Assembly: GCF_003002825.1 (NCBI RefSeq)
Contig: NZ_PVTE01000001.1
Location: 186,001 to 250,000 of the forward strand
Direction: 5' to 3'
From: Spirosoma oryzae
GTDB lineage: Bacteria > Bacteroidota > Bacteroidia > Cytophagales > Spirosomataceae
DNA length: 64,000 nucleotides
Both the position numbers and the translations under genes were made by a program. Below are positions 3,064 through 46,990 of the stretch, one piece after another. Below the pieces are notes generated by a model, which saw only the letters and a program-made list of their open reading frames with translations, was not told where the DNA came from and ran no database searches. Numbering within the stretch: the stretch's first letter is position 1; the number at the start of each line of letters is the position of its first letter.

Positions 3064-3150
3064 AGAGAGCTGCCGGAGTGGTCGAACGGGTCTGATTCGA
3101 AATCAGAAGTACTCGCAAGGGTACCGGGGGTTCGAATCCCTCGCTCTCTG
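3064..3150 (+). tRNA. tRNA-Ser (anticodon CGA)
   Basis: 87 nt with a perfect seven-pair acceptor stem (AGAGAGC with GCTCTCT), anticodon stem TCTGA/TCAGA around loop TTCGAAA (anticodon CGA), a long class II variable arm, a T arm with TTCGAAT, and discriminator G. CCA is not encoded. Its 3' end, from base 3137, is the prophage attachment core and was probably supplied by the phage on integration. Confidence 0.95.
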
Positions 3151-3151
3151 C
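3137..3151 (+). repeat. attL core, 15-bp direct repeat within the tRNA 3' end
   Basis: TCCCTCGCTCTCTGC is repeated exactly at 44818-44832. With one mismatch the match extends four bases further left (3133 and 44814). The integrase gene lies 235 bp inside this end. Confidence 0.85.
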
Positions 3152-3385: not shown

Positions 3386-4669
3386 ATGAATAATAGAAGA
3401 ATGGAACCTTTGTTCTGGACCCACCAATCCAAAAAATCAAAAGATTTAGTAACAATATATTTCCGCATCACAATGGACAAAACCCGCGTTGAGCTCGGCT
3501 CGACCGGAATCCAAATAAACCGTAAACACTGGAATCAGGAGGGGCAGCTCATTACCGCCCGGACCGGCGAGGCTCAACAGCAAAACCAAACGCTCGGGAT
3601 GCTGAAAACAAAGGTTTGGGCCGTTTACAACGACTTAATCCGTACAAACGAACCGTTTACCGTTAACAATATTAAGAAACTCTTTAAGCAGGAGGGGAAA
3701 GGCTACTCGTTTGTAAGTTTATTTGAGGTGTACCTTAAGCAGATCGCCAAAGACCCCGAAATCAGTCGCGGGACCTGTCAGACCTACGAGGTCGTCAAGA
3801 ATGGAGTCGCCGGGTGGCTTAAGGAGGAAAAGAAACTCCCGGACCTATCAGGTGAGGGGTTTGGCGTCGCCATGATGGAGGGGTATCGAACGTGGCTCCG
3901 GCTTGATCTTAAGCGAAAACCGGCAACGATCAGAAAGCATACCCAAATAGTAAAGCAGTTGCTTACATGGGCCGCTCTTAACGACTACACGACGCGCAAT
4001 CCGTTACAAGGCTACCGAATACTAAAGGTTAAGCCCAACGAGCCGGTTTACCTGACTGTTGAGGAATGTCTCGAGCTCTTAACGTATGACTTTGGTCCGA
4101 GCGACAAAGTGCTCGGCGAGGTCCGGGATTATTTCCTTATGTGCTGTTTCTCCGGGCTCGCGTTCGCCGATATAAAGTCGCTCCGGTCGGAACATCTGTT
4201 TTACCGGTCCTACCGCCCCTCCGAGCAAGCCGAGCCGCTCGGTATGATGTGGCTCGAGAAAGGCCGCGTTAAGACCGATGTTAAGGCCCGGCAACCCTTG
4301 CACCCAATCGTAAAATATATCCTCGATACTCGGTACGGCGGCAAACCGGAAAACATTCACGTTCGGCCCAATCAGAAAACGAACCTTTACCTTAAGGTTA
4401 TCGCGCTCCGTCTGGAATGGAAAAAGGTTATCACTACCCACGTCGGCCGAAAGACGTTCGCCAACCTGTGTCTAAATGGCGGATTGTACTCGGAGCGATT
4501 CGCTGAGGTTTGCCCGGCTGTCCTGAGTTTTAAAAACCGGAGTTTCTCGACCGAATCCACGCTCGCCATGATGGGCCGAACATCGGCGAAAGGGTTCGAG
4601 GCTTACGCAACGGTTGACGAGCGTAGAATTATGCTCGAACTCCAACCCGTTACGACGGCGACGGTATAA
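3386..4669 (+). CDS. int: Phage integrase, tyrosine recombinase (Bacteroidota type)
   Basis: 427 aa with an N-terminal Arm-like region (residues 1-100), a SAM-like core-binding region (110-215) and a C-terminal catalytic domain. Visible catalytic features are the beta-strand lysine region near KTDVKARQPLHP, HVGRKTFAN (box II His/Arg), MMGRTS near the usual HxxLGH position, and AYATV carrying the nucleophilic Tyr. At the usual Arg I position the sequence is CFSGLAFADIKSL, so the first arginine is not where it is expected; IntDOT-type recombinases also lack it. About 20 extra residues separate box II from the MGRTS motif. It would catalyse integration at, and excision from, the tRNA-Ser att site. 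Translation starts at ATG 3386, and a terminator follows directly. Confidence 0.93.
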   Translation: MNNRRMEPLFWTHQSKKSKDLVTIYFRITMDKTRVELGSTGIQINRKHWNQEGQLITARTGEAQQQNQTLGMLKTKVWAVYNDLIRTNEPFTVNNIKKLFKQEGKGYSFVSLFEVYLKQIAKDPEISRGTCQTYEVVKNGVAGWLKEEKKLPDLSGEGFGVAMMEGYRTWLRLDLKRKPATIRKHTQIVKQLLTWAALNDYTTRNPLQGYRILKVKPNEPVYLTVEECLELLTYDFGPSDKVLGEVRDYFLMCCFSGLAFADIKSLRSEHLFYRSYRPSEQAEPLGMMWLEKGRVKTDVKARQPLHPIVKYILDTRYGGKPENIHVRPNQKTNLYLKVIALRLEWKKVITTHVGRKTFANLCLNGGLYSERFAEVCPAVLSFKNRSFSTESTLAMMGRTSAKGFEAYATVDERRIMLELQPVTTATV

Positions 4670-8537: not shown

Positions 8538-9254
8538 TTAGGTCGCCGAAACGCCCGGAATCGCTATCGCGTCACCTACCGGCATATAGTTGAACATATA
8601 GCCATCTTGCTTCGCCTTGAGCGTCCACTCGCGCCGGTCGGAGCCTTTCGCGCCGGTCGTGTGCATAACCTCGAATTGCAGGCCCATAAACGAACTGCCA
8701 GCGATAACGCGCTGACCGTCGTTCATCACGACACATGCAACGACTTCGGTGTTAATCAGCTTGTCGATTGCGTCGCACTGTTCGGGCGTAAAACCGGCGA
8801 TTTTAACCTCGAGCGATTGCTCCCAACTCTGGTAGCCCGTCGAGCCCTTGAGCGAGCCGTCGAGCTTCAGCGAGTTATCGGAGACCTGAACCTCGACAAA
8901 AACCGGAGCCGGTGTCGCGGTAATAAACGTCGGCGCGGCCGTGATCTTACCGGCCGTGATAATCGACCGTTTCGGGTATTCGGCTGCAAACTGATCGGTT
9001 GCAATCAGAAACAACCGACGCGCTCCGCCCGGGTTAATGGTTTGCTGCGGTGTGCGCGGAATCGCGGCTAATGTGGCATAAGCGGCCGTTGTCGGCTCGA
9101 ATAGCGAGAGGCCCGTTACGGCCTGAAATCCGGCCGTTGCGAGCGGCATCGCGACCACTCCGGCCAATACGTTATTTGTCGCAAAAGCGACGGCCGAGGC
9201 CAGCAAAAGCAGGCAGACCGAGCCGATAATCGAGGTAATTGCTTTCTTGTTCAT
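8538..9254 (-). CDS. Putative major virion protein (tail-tube-like) with hydrophobic N-terminus
   Basis: 238 aa. Residues 1-55 contain two hydrophobic stretches (about 8-26 and 30-50), followed by a beta-rich region with SLEVKIAGFTPEQCDAIDKL (about 147-166) and a terminal RREWTLKAKQDGY. The gene follows the major capsid gene with its own A-rich leader (ACAACAAATAC upstream of the ATG), typical here of highly expressed virion genes. Tail tube or other abundant virion protein is the best guess. The hydrophobic N-terminus is odd for a tube protein and could mean membrane association during assembly. Confidence 0.5.
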   Translation of the reverse strand: MNKKAITSIIGSVCLLLLASAVAFATNNVLAGVVAMPLATAGFQAVTGLSLFEPTTAAYATLAAIPRTPQQTINPGGARRLFLIATDQFAAEYPKRSIITAGKITAAPTFITATPAPVFVEVQVSDNSLKLDGSLKGSTGYQSWEQSLEVKIAGFTPEQCDAIDKLINTEVVACVVMNDGQRVIAGSSFMGLQFEVMHTTGAKGSDRREWTLKAKQDGYMFNYMPVGDAIAIPGVSAT

Positions 9255-16134: not shown

Positions 16135-16136
16135 AG

Positions 16137-16174
16137 CCCAAAACTCGGCCCGGGTGAGCCTCGCCGAAAGGACC
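16137..16174 (-). promoter_or_regulatory. Late regulatory element, fibre unit
   Basis: Minus strand GGTCCTTT (16174-16167), 15 bases, then GGGCCGAGTTTTGGG (16151-16137), two bases before the ATG at 16134. The same two blocks with the same 15-base spacing occur at 35197-35160 and 36348-36311. Confidence 0.65.
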
Positions 16175-16210
16175 GAAATACGGCCCGTTTGGAAAGCGCC
16201 CTAAATGACA

Positions 16211-29325: not shown

Positions 29326-29563
29326 ATTTATACTTTTTGCGGGTTAGGTAAGGATTTTCCCGGAGGTAGTTCTCGACCTCCTTTTTAGCCAGAAAGCGAC
29401 GGGTTTTCTCGGGCTTGAGCACGACTAAATTTTGGTAAACCGAGAGCCGTACGAGGCCGGTCTTAACGAGCGCCGTTCTAGGATTTGAGAACAGATAGCG
29501 GATAAAAACAAGCGGCCCGGCGAGTAACCAGACGGCCCAAAACAGGAGTTTACGGCGTAGCAT
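29324..29563 (-). CDS. Small membrane protein in the tail module
   Basis: 79 aa. One N-terminal hydrophobic helix (about 6-25, LFWAVWLLAGPLVFIRYLF) and a basic C-terminus (RRFLAKKEVENYLRENPYL). No family known. A decayed homologue with an in-frame stop lies outside the prophage at 46612-46853, so the gene belongs to a wider phage family. It starts nine bases after the previous gene's stop. Confidence 0.65.
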   Translation of the reverse strand: MLRRKLLFWAVWLLAGPLVFIRYLFSNPRTALVKTGLVRLSVYQNLVVLKPEKTRRFLAKKEVENYLRENPYLTRKKYK

Positions 29564-29572
29564 AGTGGTAAG

Positions 29573-30037
29573 TTACGAGTAAATAACGGGATTGATTGGC
29601 AACGCAAACCGGACCTTTGCCTCGTAGCCGTAACAGGCATCGGCAACGAGCCACGAGACCGGCTCGAGCATCAGCGACCGGCCCTCCTCGAAAAGGATTT
29701 GTTCGCCGTCATTGGCCCGGAGCTGTTTGTAAATCTCGGTTGCGAGCCGCTCGGCCTCGTCGTACGTCGCGTCCTCGTCGGCATAGTTGCCGAGCCCGGA
29801 GCAATAACAAAAAACGTAGAACGTAACGTCGAACCAGCCGAGCGTTTGTTCGGCTCCGTTGTCGCTTAAGCGGCATTTCGGCCGGAGGCAAAAGACGCCC
29901 GGGTAAACGTCCTCCGAGCGACTGTCGGCGAGAAACCGTTCCATTCGGTCGCCGTCCGACAATACGGCGTAATTGATGCCGGGAACGGTTTTCGCGAGCG
30001 GGATAAAATAGTCTTTAAACTGCTTGGTTACGTTCAT
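29573..30037 (-). CDS. Tail-completion-like phage protein
   Basis: 154 aa, alpha/beta, with a central beta-rich region (GWFDVTFYVFCYC) followed by a helix (ERLATEIYKQLR) and a terminal strand (EAKVRFALPINPVIYS). Size, position and beta-helix-beta plan resemble tail-terminator proteins, but this is structural intuition. The terminal segment is preserved in the remnant at 46863-46990. It overlaps the preceding gene by four bases. Confidence 0.55.
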   Translation of the reverse strand: MNVTKQFKDYFIPLAKTVPGINYAVLSDGDRMERFLADSRSEDVYPGVFCLRPKCRLSDNGAEQTLGWFDVTFYVFCYCSGLGNYADEDATYDEAERLATEIYKQLRANDGEQILFEEGRSLMLEPVSWLVADACYGYEAKVRFALPINPVIYS

Positions 30038-35127: not shown

Positions 35128-35636
35128 CCGTTATAGCCTTCCGGCTCGGTTGATTTATGCCCAAAACTCGGCCCGGTTGAGTCTCCCGGAAAGGACCGTT
35201 TTGCGCCGGGTTGCGGCCAACGTCCGTAGTTAAAAAAGTCGCGAAAGGCTTCCATTCCGGCCGCTATGCCGAACGCTTGCTCGGCGGCTTTTCGTTGGTA
35301 CTCCTGTTCGGCGTTCCAGTCGAAAAGGTCGCCAACGTGTTTTGGAATCTCGACCAAATAAACGCTTTCGTTTGGCCGCGATTGGAGCTCCCGGATAAGG
35401 CTACGCCGGTTAACGGGTCGCCCGGCATGATAGCGTAAGTAAACCGGCTCGTAGGGCTCGACGGTTTTCCGCTCCGGCATCGGAGGAGGAGTCGAGGCCG
35501 GTAAGTTGTTGGCCTTTGGGGGCTCCGGCTTAACGAACGGCGAGGCCCATTTCCCGGCGAGCATATAGCCGAGCGAGACTCCTCCCAACAAACCGGAGAA
35601 ATAAAACAGCAAAACGAAACACAAATCGAAATTCAT
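35124..35636 (-). CDS. Phage membrane-anchored protein
   Basis: 170 aa from the ATG at 35636, which overlaps the upstream stop (ATGA); longer in-frame starts would run through the spanin-like gene. N-terminal hydrophobic helix (about 5-27, CFVLLFYFSGLLGGVSLGYML), then a Pro-rich linker (about 40-62) and a helical domain. No family recognised. The late-element copy at 35160-35197 lies inside its last codons and drives or marks the next gene. Confidence 0.55.
   Translation of the reverse strand: MNFDLCFVLLFYFSGLLGGVSLGYMLAGKWASPFVKPEPPKANNLPASTPPPMPERKTVEPYEPVYLRYHAGRPVNRRSLIRELQSRPNESVYLVEIPKHVGDLFDWNAEQEYQRKAAEQAFGIAAGMEAFRDFFNYGRWPQPGAKRSFPGDSTGPSFGHKSTEPEGYNG
35160..35197 (-). promoter_or_regulatory. 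Late regulatory element, portal unit
   Basis: Minus-strand GGTCCTTT (35197-35190), 15 bases, then GGGCCGAGTTTTGGG (35174-35160), embedded in the end of the upstream gene, 63 bases before the 35127 start. Confidence 0.6.
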
Positions 35637-36308: not shown

Positions 36309-36310
36309 AG

Positions 36311-36348
36311 ACCAAAATTCGCCCCTCCCAACCCTCCCGGAAAGGACC
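36311..36348 (-). promoter_or_regulatory. Late regulatory element, spanin-like unit
   Basis: Minus-strand GGTCCTTT (36348-36341), 15 bases, then GGGGCGAATTTTGGT (36325-36311), two bases before the ATG at 36308. The first block begins in the endolysin stop codon. Confidence 0.6.
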
Positions 36349-36791
36349 TACTTACCGGCGAGTTTCTTCCAGCCGGTTAGTTCAAAGTGCGGCCTATCGG
36401 GCAGGCTTTTAAAGTTGCCGCCCCACGTTATGCCGGTCGATTTGAGCACGAGCGGAGCGAACAAATCGAACCATTTGTCGGACCAATCTATCCGGCCTCC
36501 TTTTGCGAGGAAAGCCACGTCGAACGCGAGCGCCGGTTTATAGTTGTGAGCAGATTCTCCGGCCCGGGCGTTGGTGACGCGCTCGGCCGGTTCATCAATC
36601 TTGCCGTTTCCGTTGTTGTCGATTTTGTCGGTCGGTTGATTGAACAGAGCGGTTTGCTCCTCCGGGCTCCGAAAGGTGCAGGAGATAAACGGTTTGGGAG
36701 CCTCCGGGTAAGTGAGGAGGAACTCGGCCTCGGCCTTACCAAAGGCATAGGCTAAAAGCGGGTGTAAATCAGAAATCGAGCGAGGGGGCAT
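36348..36791 (-). CDS. Phage endolysin, M15-family L-Ala-D-Glu/D-Ala peptidase with EF-hand-like loop
   Basis: 147 aa, one M15 (VanY/endolysin) domain. The zinc-site motif SAHNYKPALAFDVAF gives His82 and Asp91, and RPHFEL gives His135. It cuts the peptide stem of peptidoglycan. Between them and the N-terminal helix is an insert DNNGNGKIDEPAE (about 58-70), which looks like an EF-hand calcium loop. Related T5 endolysin is calcium-dependent. No signal peptide, so it needs a holin to reach its substrate. It is the first late gene; the late element lies at 36859-36866. Confidence 0.88.
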   Translation of the reverse strand: MPPRSISDLHPLLAYAFGKAEAEFLLTYPEAPKPFISCTFRSPEEQTALFNQPTDKIDNNGNGKIDEPAERVTNARAGESAHNYKPALAFDVAFLAKGGRIDWSDKWFDLFAPLVLKSTGITWGGNFKSLPDRPHFELTGWKKLAGK

Positions 36792-40366: not shown

Positions 40367-40399
40367 CCCTCGCCCTCATTGAGAGCGAGGGCTTTTTTT
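40367..40399 (+). terminator. Hairpin with plus-strand T-run
   Basis: CCCTCGC (40367-40373) and GCGAGGG (40385-40391) followed by seven T on the plus strand. The genes on both sides are transcribed leftward, so it would end antisense or opposing transcripts rather than the early operon. Confidence 0.55.
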
Positions 40400-40742
40400 A
40401 TCCGTTGCCGGTTCGGATTAGGAGCTCGCTTAAGGTCTCTTTGAGCTCCTCGATTTCGGCCCGTTGGTAGTAGATCAATTCATTGTCCCGGAGCGCGTCC
40501 CATCGTAATTTTTCGAGTTCTTGCTCGCTAATGATCGGAGCCGGGTCGCTGTAGCCGAGTAGCTCCTTAAGCGTTACGCCGATTGCCTGAGCGATTCTCT
40601 CGAGTAGTTCGAGCGTTAACTTATTCCCTCGTTTTTCAAAGCGGAAATAAGACGTTTGGTCTATTCCTAGCCTCCTTGCAACCTCGGCTTGAGATAAGCC
40701 TTTCCGGTTGCGTATTGCCTTAATGTTCGCCGTTAGGTCCAT
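40398..40742 (-). CDS. XRE-family transcriptional regulator
   Basis: 114 aa. A Cro/CI HTH spans about residues 5-62 (KGLSQAEVARRLGIDQTSYFRFEKRG), followed by a C-terminal helix (LRWDALRDNELIYYQRAEIEELKETLSELL, coiled-coil-like). It is in the early operon after the 250-residue gene and could be the Cro-like partner of the CI-like repressor at 44218 or an independent operon regulator. Confidence 0.88.
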   Translation of the reverse strand: MDLTANIKAIRNRKGLSQAEVARRLGIDQTSYFRFEKRGNKLTLELLERIAQAIGVTLKELLGYSDPAPIISEQELEKLRWDALRDNELIYYQRAEIEELKETLSELLIRTGNG

Positions 40743-40757: not shown

Positions 40758-41510
40758 CTAGTTGGCCTTAAACCGGCGATTCATATTTGCAATCATGCCG
40801 TTAACCTCGCTCTCGGCTTTGGTTACGTATTCGGCGGGAGGCTCGGCCTGACGTGGCTCGCTCGTTACGATTGCCGGAGCGGTGGCGAGCGTTGGAGTCG
40901 CCGGGAGATCAATCGAGGCCGGACGAACCATTGGCGAGGTTTGGGGGAGAGGGTGTCCGCTGTATTCGTGCTTAAGCCGATGGTAAAAGCCCTCGACTCG
41001 TTCTCTCGGGTATTTCTTCTCGAGTAGAAATTTGCAATGGTTTACGAGGTGCTCGATTGTCGGAAAGCGGGTTTTACTGAACTCGAAATCGGTTTTTTCG
41101 GTGTGCCGAAAGCCCGGCCGGGAGGGTAAGTATTCTTTGTAGTTGAGGCCCGTTCCCGTTAAGCGAGCCTTATAAATCCGGTCTAAAAATTCGGTGGTTG
41201 GGAGCGAGAACTTAAGCCGGTCGAAAGCCTCGTACCTCTCGTAGTGCATCTGCAAAAGGAGCGTGTCCTTATCGCGGTGTAGGAACTCCCGGCGATAGAA
41301 CGACATAAGGAAACATTTGTCGAGATAGCCGTTATTGAGGAGCCGGGCTATACAATCTTGGAGTAATGCCTCTTTGTCCTGTTTCTCGGCCTGTCCGACG
41401 TTTTTCGAGTAACCGTCGAACGTGTAGCCGTTCGTAAGCCGGAGCTCCCAACGATACGTCGAGCCCTCTTTGTCGCCGACAAACTTCTTTTTCTGTGTAA
41501 ATACTGACAT
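40758..41510 (-). CDS. Early phage protein of unknown family
   Basis: 250 aa. An alpha/beta region (1-190) rich in Lys, Arg and aromatics (QKKKFVGDKEGSTYRWEL; HYERYEAFDRLKF; YPRERVEGFYHRLKHEY) is followed by a Pro/Ala/Thr linker (about 190-225) and a basic tail (NGMIANMNRRFKAN). No domain recognised. It is the largest early gene and so the only candidate for a replication or DNA-transaction protein, but no ATPase, primase or HTH motif is visible. Confidence 0.6.
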   Translation of the reverse strand: MSVFTQKKKFVGDKEGSTYRWELRLTNGYTFDGYSKNVGQAEKQDKEALLQDCIARLLNNGYLDKCFLMSFYRREFLHRDKDTLLLQMHYERYEAFDRLKFSLPTTEFLDRIYKARLTGTGLNYKEYLPSRPGFRHTEKTDFEFSKTRFPTIEHLVNHCKFLLEKKYPRERVEGFYHRLKHEYSGHPLPQTSPMVRPASIDLPATPTLATAPAIVTSEPRQAEPPAEYVTKAESEVNGMIANMNRRFKAN

Positions 41511-41582
41511 GGTAGGAAATTAGGAACGGTCCGCCGTTGCGGTTGGAACGTGTTTAAGTAGGGAGAGAAAAAGATCGTGGCT

Positions 41583-41888
41583 CTAAGCGGCTGAGGAGAA
41601 AGCGAGGAGCTGTTTGATATTATCGGCCGCGTTTTCGGGTTGGCTTTCGAGGATTCGGAGAACGGCCGTTAAGGTTTGCTTTTCGGCGAGTGCTCCCACT
41701 CGGAGCCCGGCCTCGTAACCGGCGTCGTAACCCGAGCCGTAACCCTCGATATAACCATTACCGTAAGCGCCCGAGCTTATAGTCGCTCGCTCGAAAGCGC
41801 GGTCTATCCGCTCGGCTTGGCTGATTTTGGAGGACCGGGCGAATAGGGCGACAAAGACTCCGGCGATAGTGGTTTGAATTGCGTTCAT
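41583..41888 (-). CDS. Small early protein of the repeat-bounded array, member 1
   Basis: 101 aa. A hydrophobic N-terminal helix (about 5-20, TTIAGVFVALFARS), then a Gly/Tyr-rich stretch with GYGSGYDAGYEAGLR and a helical C-terminus. No family recognised. The start has the CAAAATTTCCAA leader and the stop lies in the boundary repeat. Confidence 0.55.
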   Translation of the reverse strand: MNAIQTTIAGVFVALFARSSKISQAERIDRAFERATISSGAYGNGYIEGYGSGYDAGYEAGLRVGALAEKQTLTAVLRILESQPENAADNIKQLLAFSSAA

Positions 41889-41977
41889 GGTTTGGAAATT
41901 TTGAATTGGAAAGGATTGATTTAAGACTTTATGAGCCTATCGGCTTGCTTTAGTTGCTCGAAAAAAAGATCGTGGCT

Positions 41978-42232
41978 CTAAGCGCCCGGTCTGGTCTGTG
42001 GTGCCGAATTTGGATTTTCGGCCGCTTTTTCAGCCTCATTTTCCACCAATCCGAGGAGCATCTTTAAATGAACTCTCTCAATCTTGAGTGCGTCGGTTTG
42101 CCCGAACGAGTAACCCCGGTCCCATTCGTCGGCGTCCGATTTGTAGCGCCGTTTTTTTGCCTCCTCGAGATCGTTATTTGTGATCGTGAGCATTGCCTCG
42201 AGGTGTGTTTTAAGCGTCTGTAAGGTTTCCAT
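41978..42232 (-). CDS. Small early protein of the repeat-bounded array, member 2
   Basis: 84 aa, helical, acidic/basic mix with WDRGYSFGQTDALKIERVHLKMLLGLV; Pro-rich tail. Its GYxxGxxDA pattern resembles member 1, suggesting a distant relationship. The stop lies in the boundary repeat. Confidence 0.55.
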   Translation of the reverse strand: METLQTLKTHLEAMLTITNNDLEEAKKRRYKSDADEWDRGYSFGQTDALKIERVHLKMLLGLVENEAEKAAENPNSAPQTRPGA

Positions 42233-42275
42233 CGGTTTTTGTGGGTTTTAGTAGGATTAGAAAAAGATCGAGGCT

Positions 42276-42548
42276 CTAAACGGCCGGAGCGCCGTCTCCC
42301 TCGGGATTCTCGATTTTGGCGCTCGGCTCGGGAGTGTTAGAAAGCATCGCCGAGAGGTTCGTTAAAAACCCTATTTCGCTGTTTATCTGATGGTCGAGGT
42401 TCTTACACCAGTTGTTTGCCGCTAACCAGCCGAGCCCCTCGTTTCCCTTAATACGATTGAGGATTCGAGCGAGCCGGTCTCGCTCTTGGTTGAGCACGTC
42501 GAGCCGGGAGGTAATTGTCGCGATTGCTACTCGGTTTAAAATGGTCAT
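42276..42548 (-). CDS. Small early protein of the repeat-bounded array, member 3
   Basis: 90 aa, helical (ITSRLDVLNQERDRLARILNRI; NNWCKNLDHQINSEIGFL), with an acidic C-terminal tail. No family recognised. The stop lies in the boundary repeat; another diverged repeat lies beyond its start. Confidence 0.55.
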   Translation of the reverse strand: MTILNRVAIATITSRLDVLNQERDRLARILNRIKGNEGLGWLAANNWCKNLDHQINSEIGFLTNLSAMLSNTPEPSAKIENPEGDGAPAV

Positions 42549-42813
42549 CGTTTTTAGCCTCTCTGAGCGTTTTTAGGGTTGTTGGCTTGTTTTAGCAGAC
42601 CGAAAAAAATATCGCGTCGCTCCGGGCCTCTCTCGGCGTCTGGTGGCGAAATCGAAATTTTCGCGGGTTTTTCGGGCCAACTTTCCGGCCCTCGGGATTT
42701 CGCGCCAAAATCGGCCGAGGGTCGTTTTACAGTTATTCAGTTAGGGAGAAACTGCTCTTTAGAGCCGTTTACAAAACTGTTAATCTGGTTATTCCAGACG
42801 TTTACTGTAATTG

Positions 42814-44217: not shown

Positions 44218-44715
44218 ATGGTAAATGTCGCTGAACGCATCAAAAAGGCACTTTTCGCGAAATCTTGGACTGTAAAAAAACTTTGTGGAGCGATTGAAGT
44301 TTCCGAGGCCGGTTATAAACACATGGTCGAAAACAACAGTTGGAAACTCCATAACCTTAGCAAAATCGCCGAGGTATTAGATATGCCGTTAACGGCGCTC
44401 GTCTCGGAGGAGGAGCCGGAGATCGTCTCCCGGCCGAGCGGTGAATCCGAGGCTTATTTGCAGGACCATCTTAAGCGGCTCGAGGAGAATTTCGCTCGCC
44501 TGTCTGCCCAACTAGAAACTAAAGACCGGCAAATCGACGGCCTCCAACGGACCGCCGACTCGTTACAGCGTTACGTCGATACGCTCCTCGGTAGTACGCC
44601 TGCTAACGAGAAAGCCGATAAGAAAGCAAAGTCTTTTCTTAAGCCTGCTACCGAGACCGGAAGAGTTGTCGAGATGTACCCCGCCGAGAAATCGGAATCG
44701 AAAAAATCGGCCTAA
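44218..44715 (+). CDS. CI-like phage repressor (HTH plus coiled coil)
   Basis: 165 aa. N-terminal HTH (about residues 5-60, with WTVKKLCGAIEVSEAGYKHMVE as the recognition region), then a coiled coil (about 80-125, DHLKRLEENFARLSAQLETKDRQIDGLQ) that should mediate dimerisation, and a Lys/Ser-rich tail. There is no LexA-type self-cleavage domain, so induction would not be the usual RecA route. Divergent from the early genes with paired operators between. It is the last gene before attR. Confidence 0.82.
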   Translation: MVNVAERIKKALFAKSWTVKKLCGAIEVSEAGYKHMVENNSWKLHNLSKIAEVLDMPLTALVSEEEPEIVSRPSGESEAYLQDHLKRLEENFARLSAQLETKDRQIDGLQRTADSLQRYVDTLLGSTPANEKADKKAKSFLKPATETGRVVEMYPAEKSESKKSA

Positions 44716-46611: not shown

Positions 46612-46853
46612 GTTTTCGATTTAGGTATAGATTCTCTGGAAGGTAATTGTCAACCTGCTTTTTGGCGCGAAACTGACGCGTTTATCAGGCTTTCGCTCGG
46701 CAAAGTTTCGATATACTGAGTGTAGTACGAATCCCACTTTAATAAGCGCCATGATCGTCCTAGCGTGGTCCGGATTGAGAACAGGTAGCGGAGTAAAACG
46801 AGCGGACCTGTGAGTAATCAGACGGTCTGAGACAGGAGTTTTCGGCGTAGCAC
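46612..46853 (-). pseudogene. Decayed copy of the 79-aa tail-module membrane-protein gene
   Basis: The translated minus strand gives RRKLLSQTV, stop, LLTGPLVLLRYLFSIR, matching RRKLLFWAVWLLAGPLVFIRYLFSNP of the prophage gene at 29324-29563. The start codon has become GTG and a Trp codon has become TGA. Similarity continues, with drift, to the 3' end. Confidence 0.75.
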
Positions 46854-46862
46854 AGCGGTAAG

Positions 46863-46990
46863 TTACGAACAGATAACCGAATTGGTCGGTAGGGCAAACC
46901 GAACCTTTGCCTTATAGTTCTTACAGGTATCTGTTACCAGCCACGAAAGCAGCAAGTAACAACTAGATTTTACTATCGCGTGTATGTCCT
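46863..46990 (-). pseudogene. Fragment of the 154-aa tail-completion-like gene
   Basis: The C-terminal segment SWLVTDTCKNYKAKVRFALP then TNSVICS matches SWLVADACYGYEAKVRFALP then INPVIYS from the prophage gene at 29573-30037. The gene order relative to the previous fragment is the same. The N-terminal part of the original gene is missing or unrecognisable; the right boundary is approximate. Confidence 0.7.

Follow-up and report, generated by a model that had tools for sequence, protein, structure and literature searches.

Integron gene cassettes are small genes that alternate with a repeat and show variable occupancy, and the stoperators of cluster A mycobacteriophages are short, phage-specific repressor-binding sites placed in one orientation between genes. 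Sequences acting in transcription regulation are mentioned for L5 and other cluster A phages in the accessible text of PMC3203893. The same accessible text describes the SAS/ESAS of cluster K mycobacteriophages as one-orientation repeats lying just before the start codons of unrelated genes, which sometimes contain the stop codon of the preceding gene, are conserved across phages and are in part subcluster-specific; the SAS itself is 13 bp long, lies at the ribosome-binding site and is preceded by 17-bp inverted repeats, and the role of these sequences is described as unclear (PMC3203893). SAS-like sequences also appear in Microbacterium phages, according to the accessible part of PMC7302621. 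In T4-type phages, promoter early stem-loops (PeSL) are described as mediating gene shuffling (accessible part of PMC4503421, citing Arbiol 2010 and Comeau 2014). A literature search, with most subscription journals outside its reach, listed no title on the leaders of Spirosoma prophages.

The locus presented here combines a repeat in one orientation ahead of small phage genes with a gene content that varies among relatives. It lies in a stretch of 64,000 nucleotides from Spirosoma oryzae (the window).

The repeated element of the early operon

The window is bacterial chromosome carrying a prophage, and the repeat array sits on the minus strand in the early operon of this prophage. The same early region is also present in a public viral contig, and a scan of the window against Rfam at gathering score matched the tRNA and no other family. 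The features considered are the following:

3064-3151, tRNA-Ser
3386-4669, integrase-like gene beside the tRNA-Ser, named from its sequence by eye
40758-41510, minus strand, g250, conserved 250-aa early gene used as comparison anchor
41512-41648, minus strand, element copy c1, between g101 and g250, its TAG stopping g101; 59 bits
41583-41888, minus strand, g101, 101-aa gene
41907-42043, minus strand, element copy c2, between g84 and g101, its TAG stopping g84; 83.4 bits
41978-42232, minus strand, g84, gene of an 84-aa helical protein
42205-42341, minus strand, element copy c3, between g90 and g84, its TAG stopping g90; 60.6 bits
42276-42548, minus strand, g90, 90-aa gene
42549-42685, minus strand, element copy c4, core GATATTTTTTT, preceding g90 in the leader, behind the promoter region; 87.4 bits
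42730-42746, minus strand, CCCTAACTGAATAACTG, upstream of c4 in the presumed promoter region, by eye similar in several relatives

Four repeats were located on the minus strand, at 41552-41591, 41947-41986, 42245-42284 and 42589-42628, with start-to-start spacings of 395, 298 and 344 nt. A 20-mer is found in three copies at up to 3 mismatches, versus 0.02 expected from shuffles (none of 100 shuffles reached 3), and a search of the host genome for copies beyond these four found none.

The repeat is the visible middle of a larger element of ~137 nt, which extends from -72 to +65 around GATCTTTTT and comprises, from 5' to 3', an A-rich half, 16 nt that are specific to each phage, the near-invariant GATCTTTTTTT core and a last part that ends A-rich before the next start codon. 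Identity between phages is at background at about -72, reaches 0.92 over the core and is about 0.3 by +65 to +85, with values of 0.34-0.92 per 10 bases from -72 to +65 and a background of 0.26 (140 pairs). An ungapped alignment of 62 bases takes in thirteen copies, and one of about 136 bases with few gaps takes in fifteen. At E <= 1e-4, profile R2, built from these, picks up 18 copies, spread over 10 of the 222 Spirosomataceae genomes searched; three of the copies (one in G188 and two in G194) were absent from its model. R2 discriminates, whereas the short model R1 does not, since it matches 210 of the 222 genomes at E <= 0.5. Carriers among the named relatives are Spirosoma and Rudanella prophages, and the early operons of the closest g250 relatives show the same core in one orientation.

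A matrix derived from the 14 copies outside the window was run over 127,896 window positions. Over the full element length it ranked c4 first, and for the part behind the core it ranked c4, c3 and c2 as 1, 2 and 4 and c1 as 9311, indicating that c1, whose 3' part is weakly conserved, has lost that part. When the core was left out together with the preceding 20 bases, the first of the 127,896 positions was a stretch inside the 3' end of g84, followed by c4 in second, c1 in 16th and c3 in 123rd place.

All 18 copies have one orientation and lie on the same strand as the adjacent small genes. In a by-eye count, in which the anchors g250, p108 and the 150-aa gene are not taken as inserted genes, the element precedes nine of nine inserted genes and follows seven of them; this count omits the 95-aa gene of L132, with which the element precedes 9/10 and follows 8/10. 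In L055, L056, L058 and L059 the element lies in the leader and no gene immediately precedes it, the exception to the general arrangement being L132e2, which lacks a co-oriented gene behind. Within the window, c4 stands ahead of g90 and c1 ahead of g250, so that each of the four genes is preceded by a copy.

These positions partly confirm and partly modify the sequence-only reading, which had described three unrelated small genes sharing an 18-base 3' end, with a fourth repeat past the first-transcribed gene. The first three bases of the 18-mer are indeed the TAG stop of g101, g84 and g90, although it is identical in two copies and differs at one base in the third. The fourth repeat exists, but it lies ahead of g90, and the described alternation had left out a fourth gene (40758-41510), which the first copy precedes. 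No relation to the other two is seen for g90, but g84 and g101 are homologous (local-alignment z 7.7, 0/300 shuffles). The idea of a shared gene end had the arrangement the wrong way round, the element leading the genes. The stop codon is shared because three reading frames run into the 5' half of the element, and the common 3' end is the element's own sequence translated as a protein tail. In the window and in one L057 copy the frame reads through the 5' half and stops at the TAG nine bases before the core, while in G188, G194 and L132 the preceding gene stops near the 5' edge of the element. The structure model of g84 is a two-helix hairpin, its last residues being of low confidence because the frame ends inside the element.

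Several further observations concern the surroundings of these copies. A sequence similar to CCCTAACTGAATAACTG is present upstream of the early operon in L053, L058, L059 and other relatives, and in L060-L064 in the opposite orientation; CCCTAACTGAATAACTG probably belongs to the early promoter or operator. A palindrome, GCTCTAAAGAGC, lies at 42754-42766 in the presumed promoter region and has TTTAGAGCC in common with c3. An operator role for this palindrome was considered and rejected, no such copy being found in the promoter regions of other phages and comparable chance matches being abundant. In L132 (G146), where the elements lie in an island next to an ABC-transporter-like gene and not beside a 250-aa gene, a possible third, degenerate element is seen at 9004-9038 on the minus strand between opposite-strand genes, beside two good copies. 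The weak third copy L132e3 (R2 E 0.0079) was excluded from alignments A2 and A3 and from the 18 copies, but was included among the 19 stretches of the local-hairpin and promoter/attC-box tests described below.

The window also contains other repeats. A second one, of 40 nt, occurs on the minus strand at 16136-16175, 35159-35198 and 36310-36349, ahead of same-strand genes; two copies are 90% alike and the third 70%, and two lie directly before an ATG, an arrangement that points to a repeated leader in the late operon of the same phage as well. A 179-nt repeat (29485-29663 and 46775-46953, 78% alike) corresponds to a phage gene end duplicated beyond a repressor-like gene.

Gene content around the element in related prophages

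Counting the window's own genome, 21 of 200 family genomes contain a relative of g250. Upstream of the 250-aa gene, the following contents were found:

Window: four elements, three genes
L054: two elements, two genes (70-aa gene and single-strand-binding protein)
L059: two elements, no gene
L055, L056 and L058: one element each, no gene
L053 and L057: no element

The comparison proposed in the sequence-only reading thus shows relatives that differ by single genes gained or lost at the element, with zero to three genes at this position, and supports that reading in part. In L057, two elements flank an 80-aa gene further down, before p108.

The sister prophages G188 and G194, which share 84% identity over 3.2 kb, each carry a 150-aa gene (147 aa in G188) followed by an element. 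After this element, G188 continues directly with p108, while in G194 two further genes follow, first of 76 and then of 70 aa, separated by a second element; the alignment places the start of the 0.6-kb insert of G194 at the first base behind the element and its end at the p108 ATG. Such a clean insertion junction is seen in this one sister pair.

Homologous pairs are found within these arrays. The 76-aa and 70-aa genes of G194 are paralogous (z 18.3), and the latter is closely related to a gene of L054 (z 41.9) that lies behind an element elsewhere in the operon. Likewise, g84 and g101 are homologues of the 80-aa gene of L057 (L057/L075; L075:6864-7106), a family with one weak, interrupted match elsewhere among 222 genomes. 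No relative of g90 was found in 200 family genomes, searches with g84 gave no convincing match in phages (best E 0.5) or plasmids, and PHROGs and Pfam provided no convincing name for any small element-bounded gene. As a separate observation, the single-strand-binding gene takes different operon positions in related prophages (L160:8836-9291 and L054), and only in L054 does an element precede it.

Considering these data together, we regard the ~137-nt element as probably a start-associated regulatory leader that would also provide a boundary for recombination, both the regulation and the way in which the genes recombine being inferred. Spirosoma and Rudanella prophages place the element ahead of early-operon genes, where it would most likely control the expression of the gene behind, through a factor of the phage or of the host that reads it in DNA or RNA. 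Since the copies are interchangeable, recombination inside the element or at its edge, presumably ordinary homologous recombination, would allow small genes to be acquired, lost or duplicated one at a time.

A distinctly less probable, though serious, alternative is that the element is a regulatory leader and nothing else, each early gene needing one, in which case the variable genes would be ordinary phage mosaicism kept by selection and recombination at this place would be nothing special. Such a role agrees with the element being old and constrained over its whole length, with its presence before conserved genes with nothing inserted, and with other gene gains that happen without it, since the 105-aa, 77-aa and single-strand-binding genes of G188 are all absent from G194 and have no element. 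It accounts less well for the left junction of the sole clean pair, which falls exactly at the 3' end of the element, and for the homologous small genes lying behind elements at two operon positions.

The phage-specific segment, folding and coding

Copies of the same phage resemble each other mainly in the segment from -16 to 0, where identity is 0.61 within a phage (11 pairs) versus 0.36 between phages (125 pairs), a difference reached in none of 5000 label shuffles; L160, the sister of L161, was excluded from this test. With the window left out, the values are 0.54 and 0.34 (p 0.0034). No difference is seen for the core in the full set (0.92 within, 0.90 between) or for the far 3' part (0.39 and 0.41), and smaller ones appear in the 19 bases behind the core (0.58 and 0.48, p 0.013) and, with the window left out, in the 5' half (0.58 and 0.49, p 0.0056). 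Over the whole element, within-phage copies are only slightly more alike (0.55 versus 0.49, p 0.017). As they are hardly more alike outside the middle, a recent duplication of a whole unit is not visible in the window.

The pattern of the 16-nt segment fits a factor specific to each phage, and the likeness within a phage may also derive from local gene conversion or from a recent common origin of the middle part. As a speculative and rather doubtful extension, the element could be a two-part address label, with a scaffold and core common to all phages and a 16-nt segment particular to each, whose own label would be read by a phage-encoded factor. A gene landing behind the element would then fall at once under the early control of that phage and, if true, the element would serve as a port for gene swapping that carries its own specificity code.

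That the conserved feature is instead an RNA hairpin, terminator or attenuator around the T-tract appears unlikely. Single copies do fold well there, as L132e1, which is terminator-like, and L054b, and the mean z over 19 stretches is negative (-0.63 and -0.68), although these average values are weak. A search for a consensus RNA structure in both element alignments, that of 15 copies included, gave no consensus pair; pairing partners vary from copy to copy, and the fold z-scores of 16 stretches scatter around 0. The T-tract hairpin, good in single copies and absent from the alignment, was therefore discarded. TAnnTTTG, a promoter consensus that may not be the one used by these phages, was present in none of the 19 stretches.

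Quite improbable is also a coding element, in which the conserved peptide HDLFLxLLKQ would act as a leader peptide or, after small genes, would be added by amber readthrough. Frame 0 of nine leader copies has one stop from -62 to 0, versus eight and eight in the other frames, and scores best from 0 to +36 (z 1.6), but no z-score reaches 2, a stop stands one or two codons before the core in six intergenic copies, and the third codon positions of GATCTTTTT hardly vary. The peptide (HDLFLxLLK, in frame 0 of most of the copies found early) is lost in the later G188 and G194 copies, and this candidate was likewise rejected.

Regarding the cassette exchange of the sequence-only reading, what survives is the exchange of single genes bounded by the element, as in the clean insertion of G194, and what finds no support is an integron-like system. 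In the one genome searched, the integron integrase model TIGR02249 gave no match above cut-off, its seven sub-threshold matches being of the level seen in 14 of 14 control genomes. The attC boxes occur in 4 (RYYYAAC) and 2 (GTTRRRY) of the 19 stretches, one stretch having both, which does not exceed shuffles (means per stretch of 0.25 and 0.09). Thus, despite the alternation of repeats with small genes and the different occupancy among relatives, a site-specific recombinase using the repeat like an integron attC and moving circular cassettes is the least credible explanation, considering (i) the lack of an integrase above cut-off, (ii) boxes no commoner than in shuffles and no conserved fold, and (iii) the last inserted gene of both L054 and G194, which no element follows.

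Comparison with known systems

The array shares with integron cassettes its alternating small genes and repeats and their variable occupancy, and differs from them in that integrase above cut-off, attC boxes and fold are lacking and in that the element leads the genes. Like stoperators, the copies are phage-specific, one-orientation sites between genes; stoperators are known repressor-binding sites, whereas protein binding to the Spirosoma element is putative, with the HTH proteins at 40398-40742 and 44218-44715 among the candidate binders.

As far as the accessible descriptions of SAS/ESAS allow the comparison, the element is similarly found in one orientation before starts, sometimes holds the previous stop codon, is shared between phages and has a part that is specific to a narrower group. 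It differs in its length of ~137 nt, its other sequence and a core-to-start distance of ~30-90 nt, and neither the 13-bp SAS consensus nor the 17-bp inverted repeats, as given in those descriptions, was present when sought in the element consensus. With PeSL, in the accessible account, it has in common a repeated, presumably regulatory sequence between small variable genes that is tied to gene shuffling, but it bears no conserved stem-loop and no TAnnTTTG, a consensus that these phages may not use. Shuffling of the PeSL type is represented here by one sister pair and by homologous genes found at two places in the operon. In position and apparent behaviour the element resembles both SAS/ESAS and PeSL, while by sequence and anatomy it belongs to neither. 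Start-associated repeats and shuffling motifs are already known from actinobacterial and T4-type phages; the present element belongs to a temperate Bacteroidota phage family, with defined limits, a sister pair with a clean insertion and a phage-specific segment, and would permit a direct test of whether leaders of this kind serve as control sites, as ports for recombination, or in both roles.
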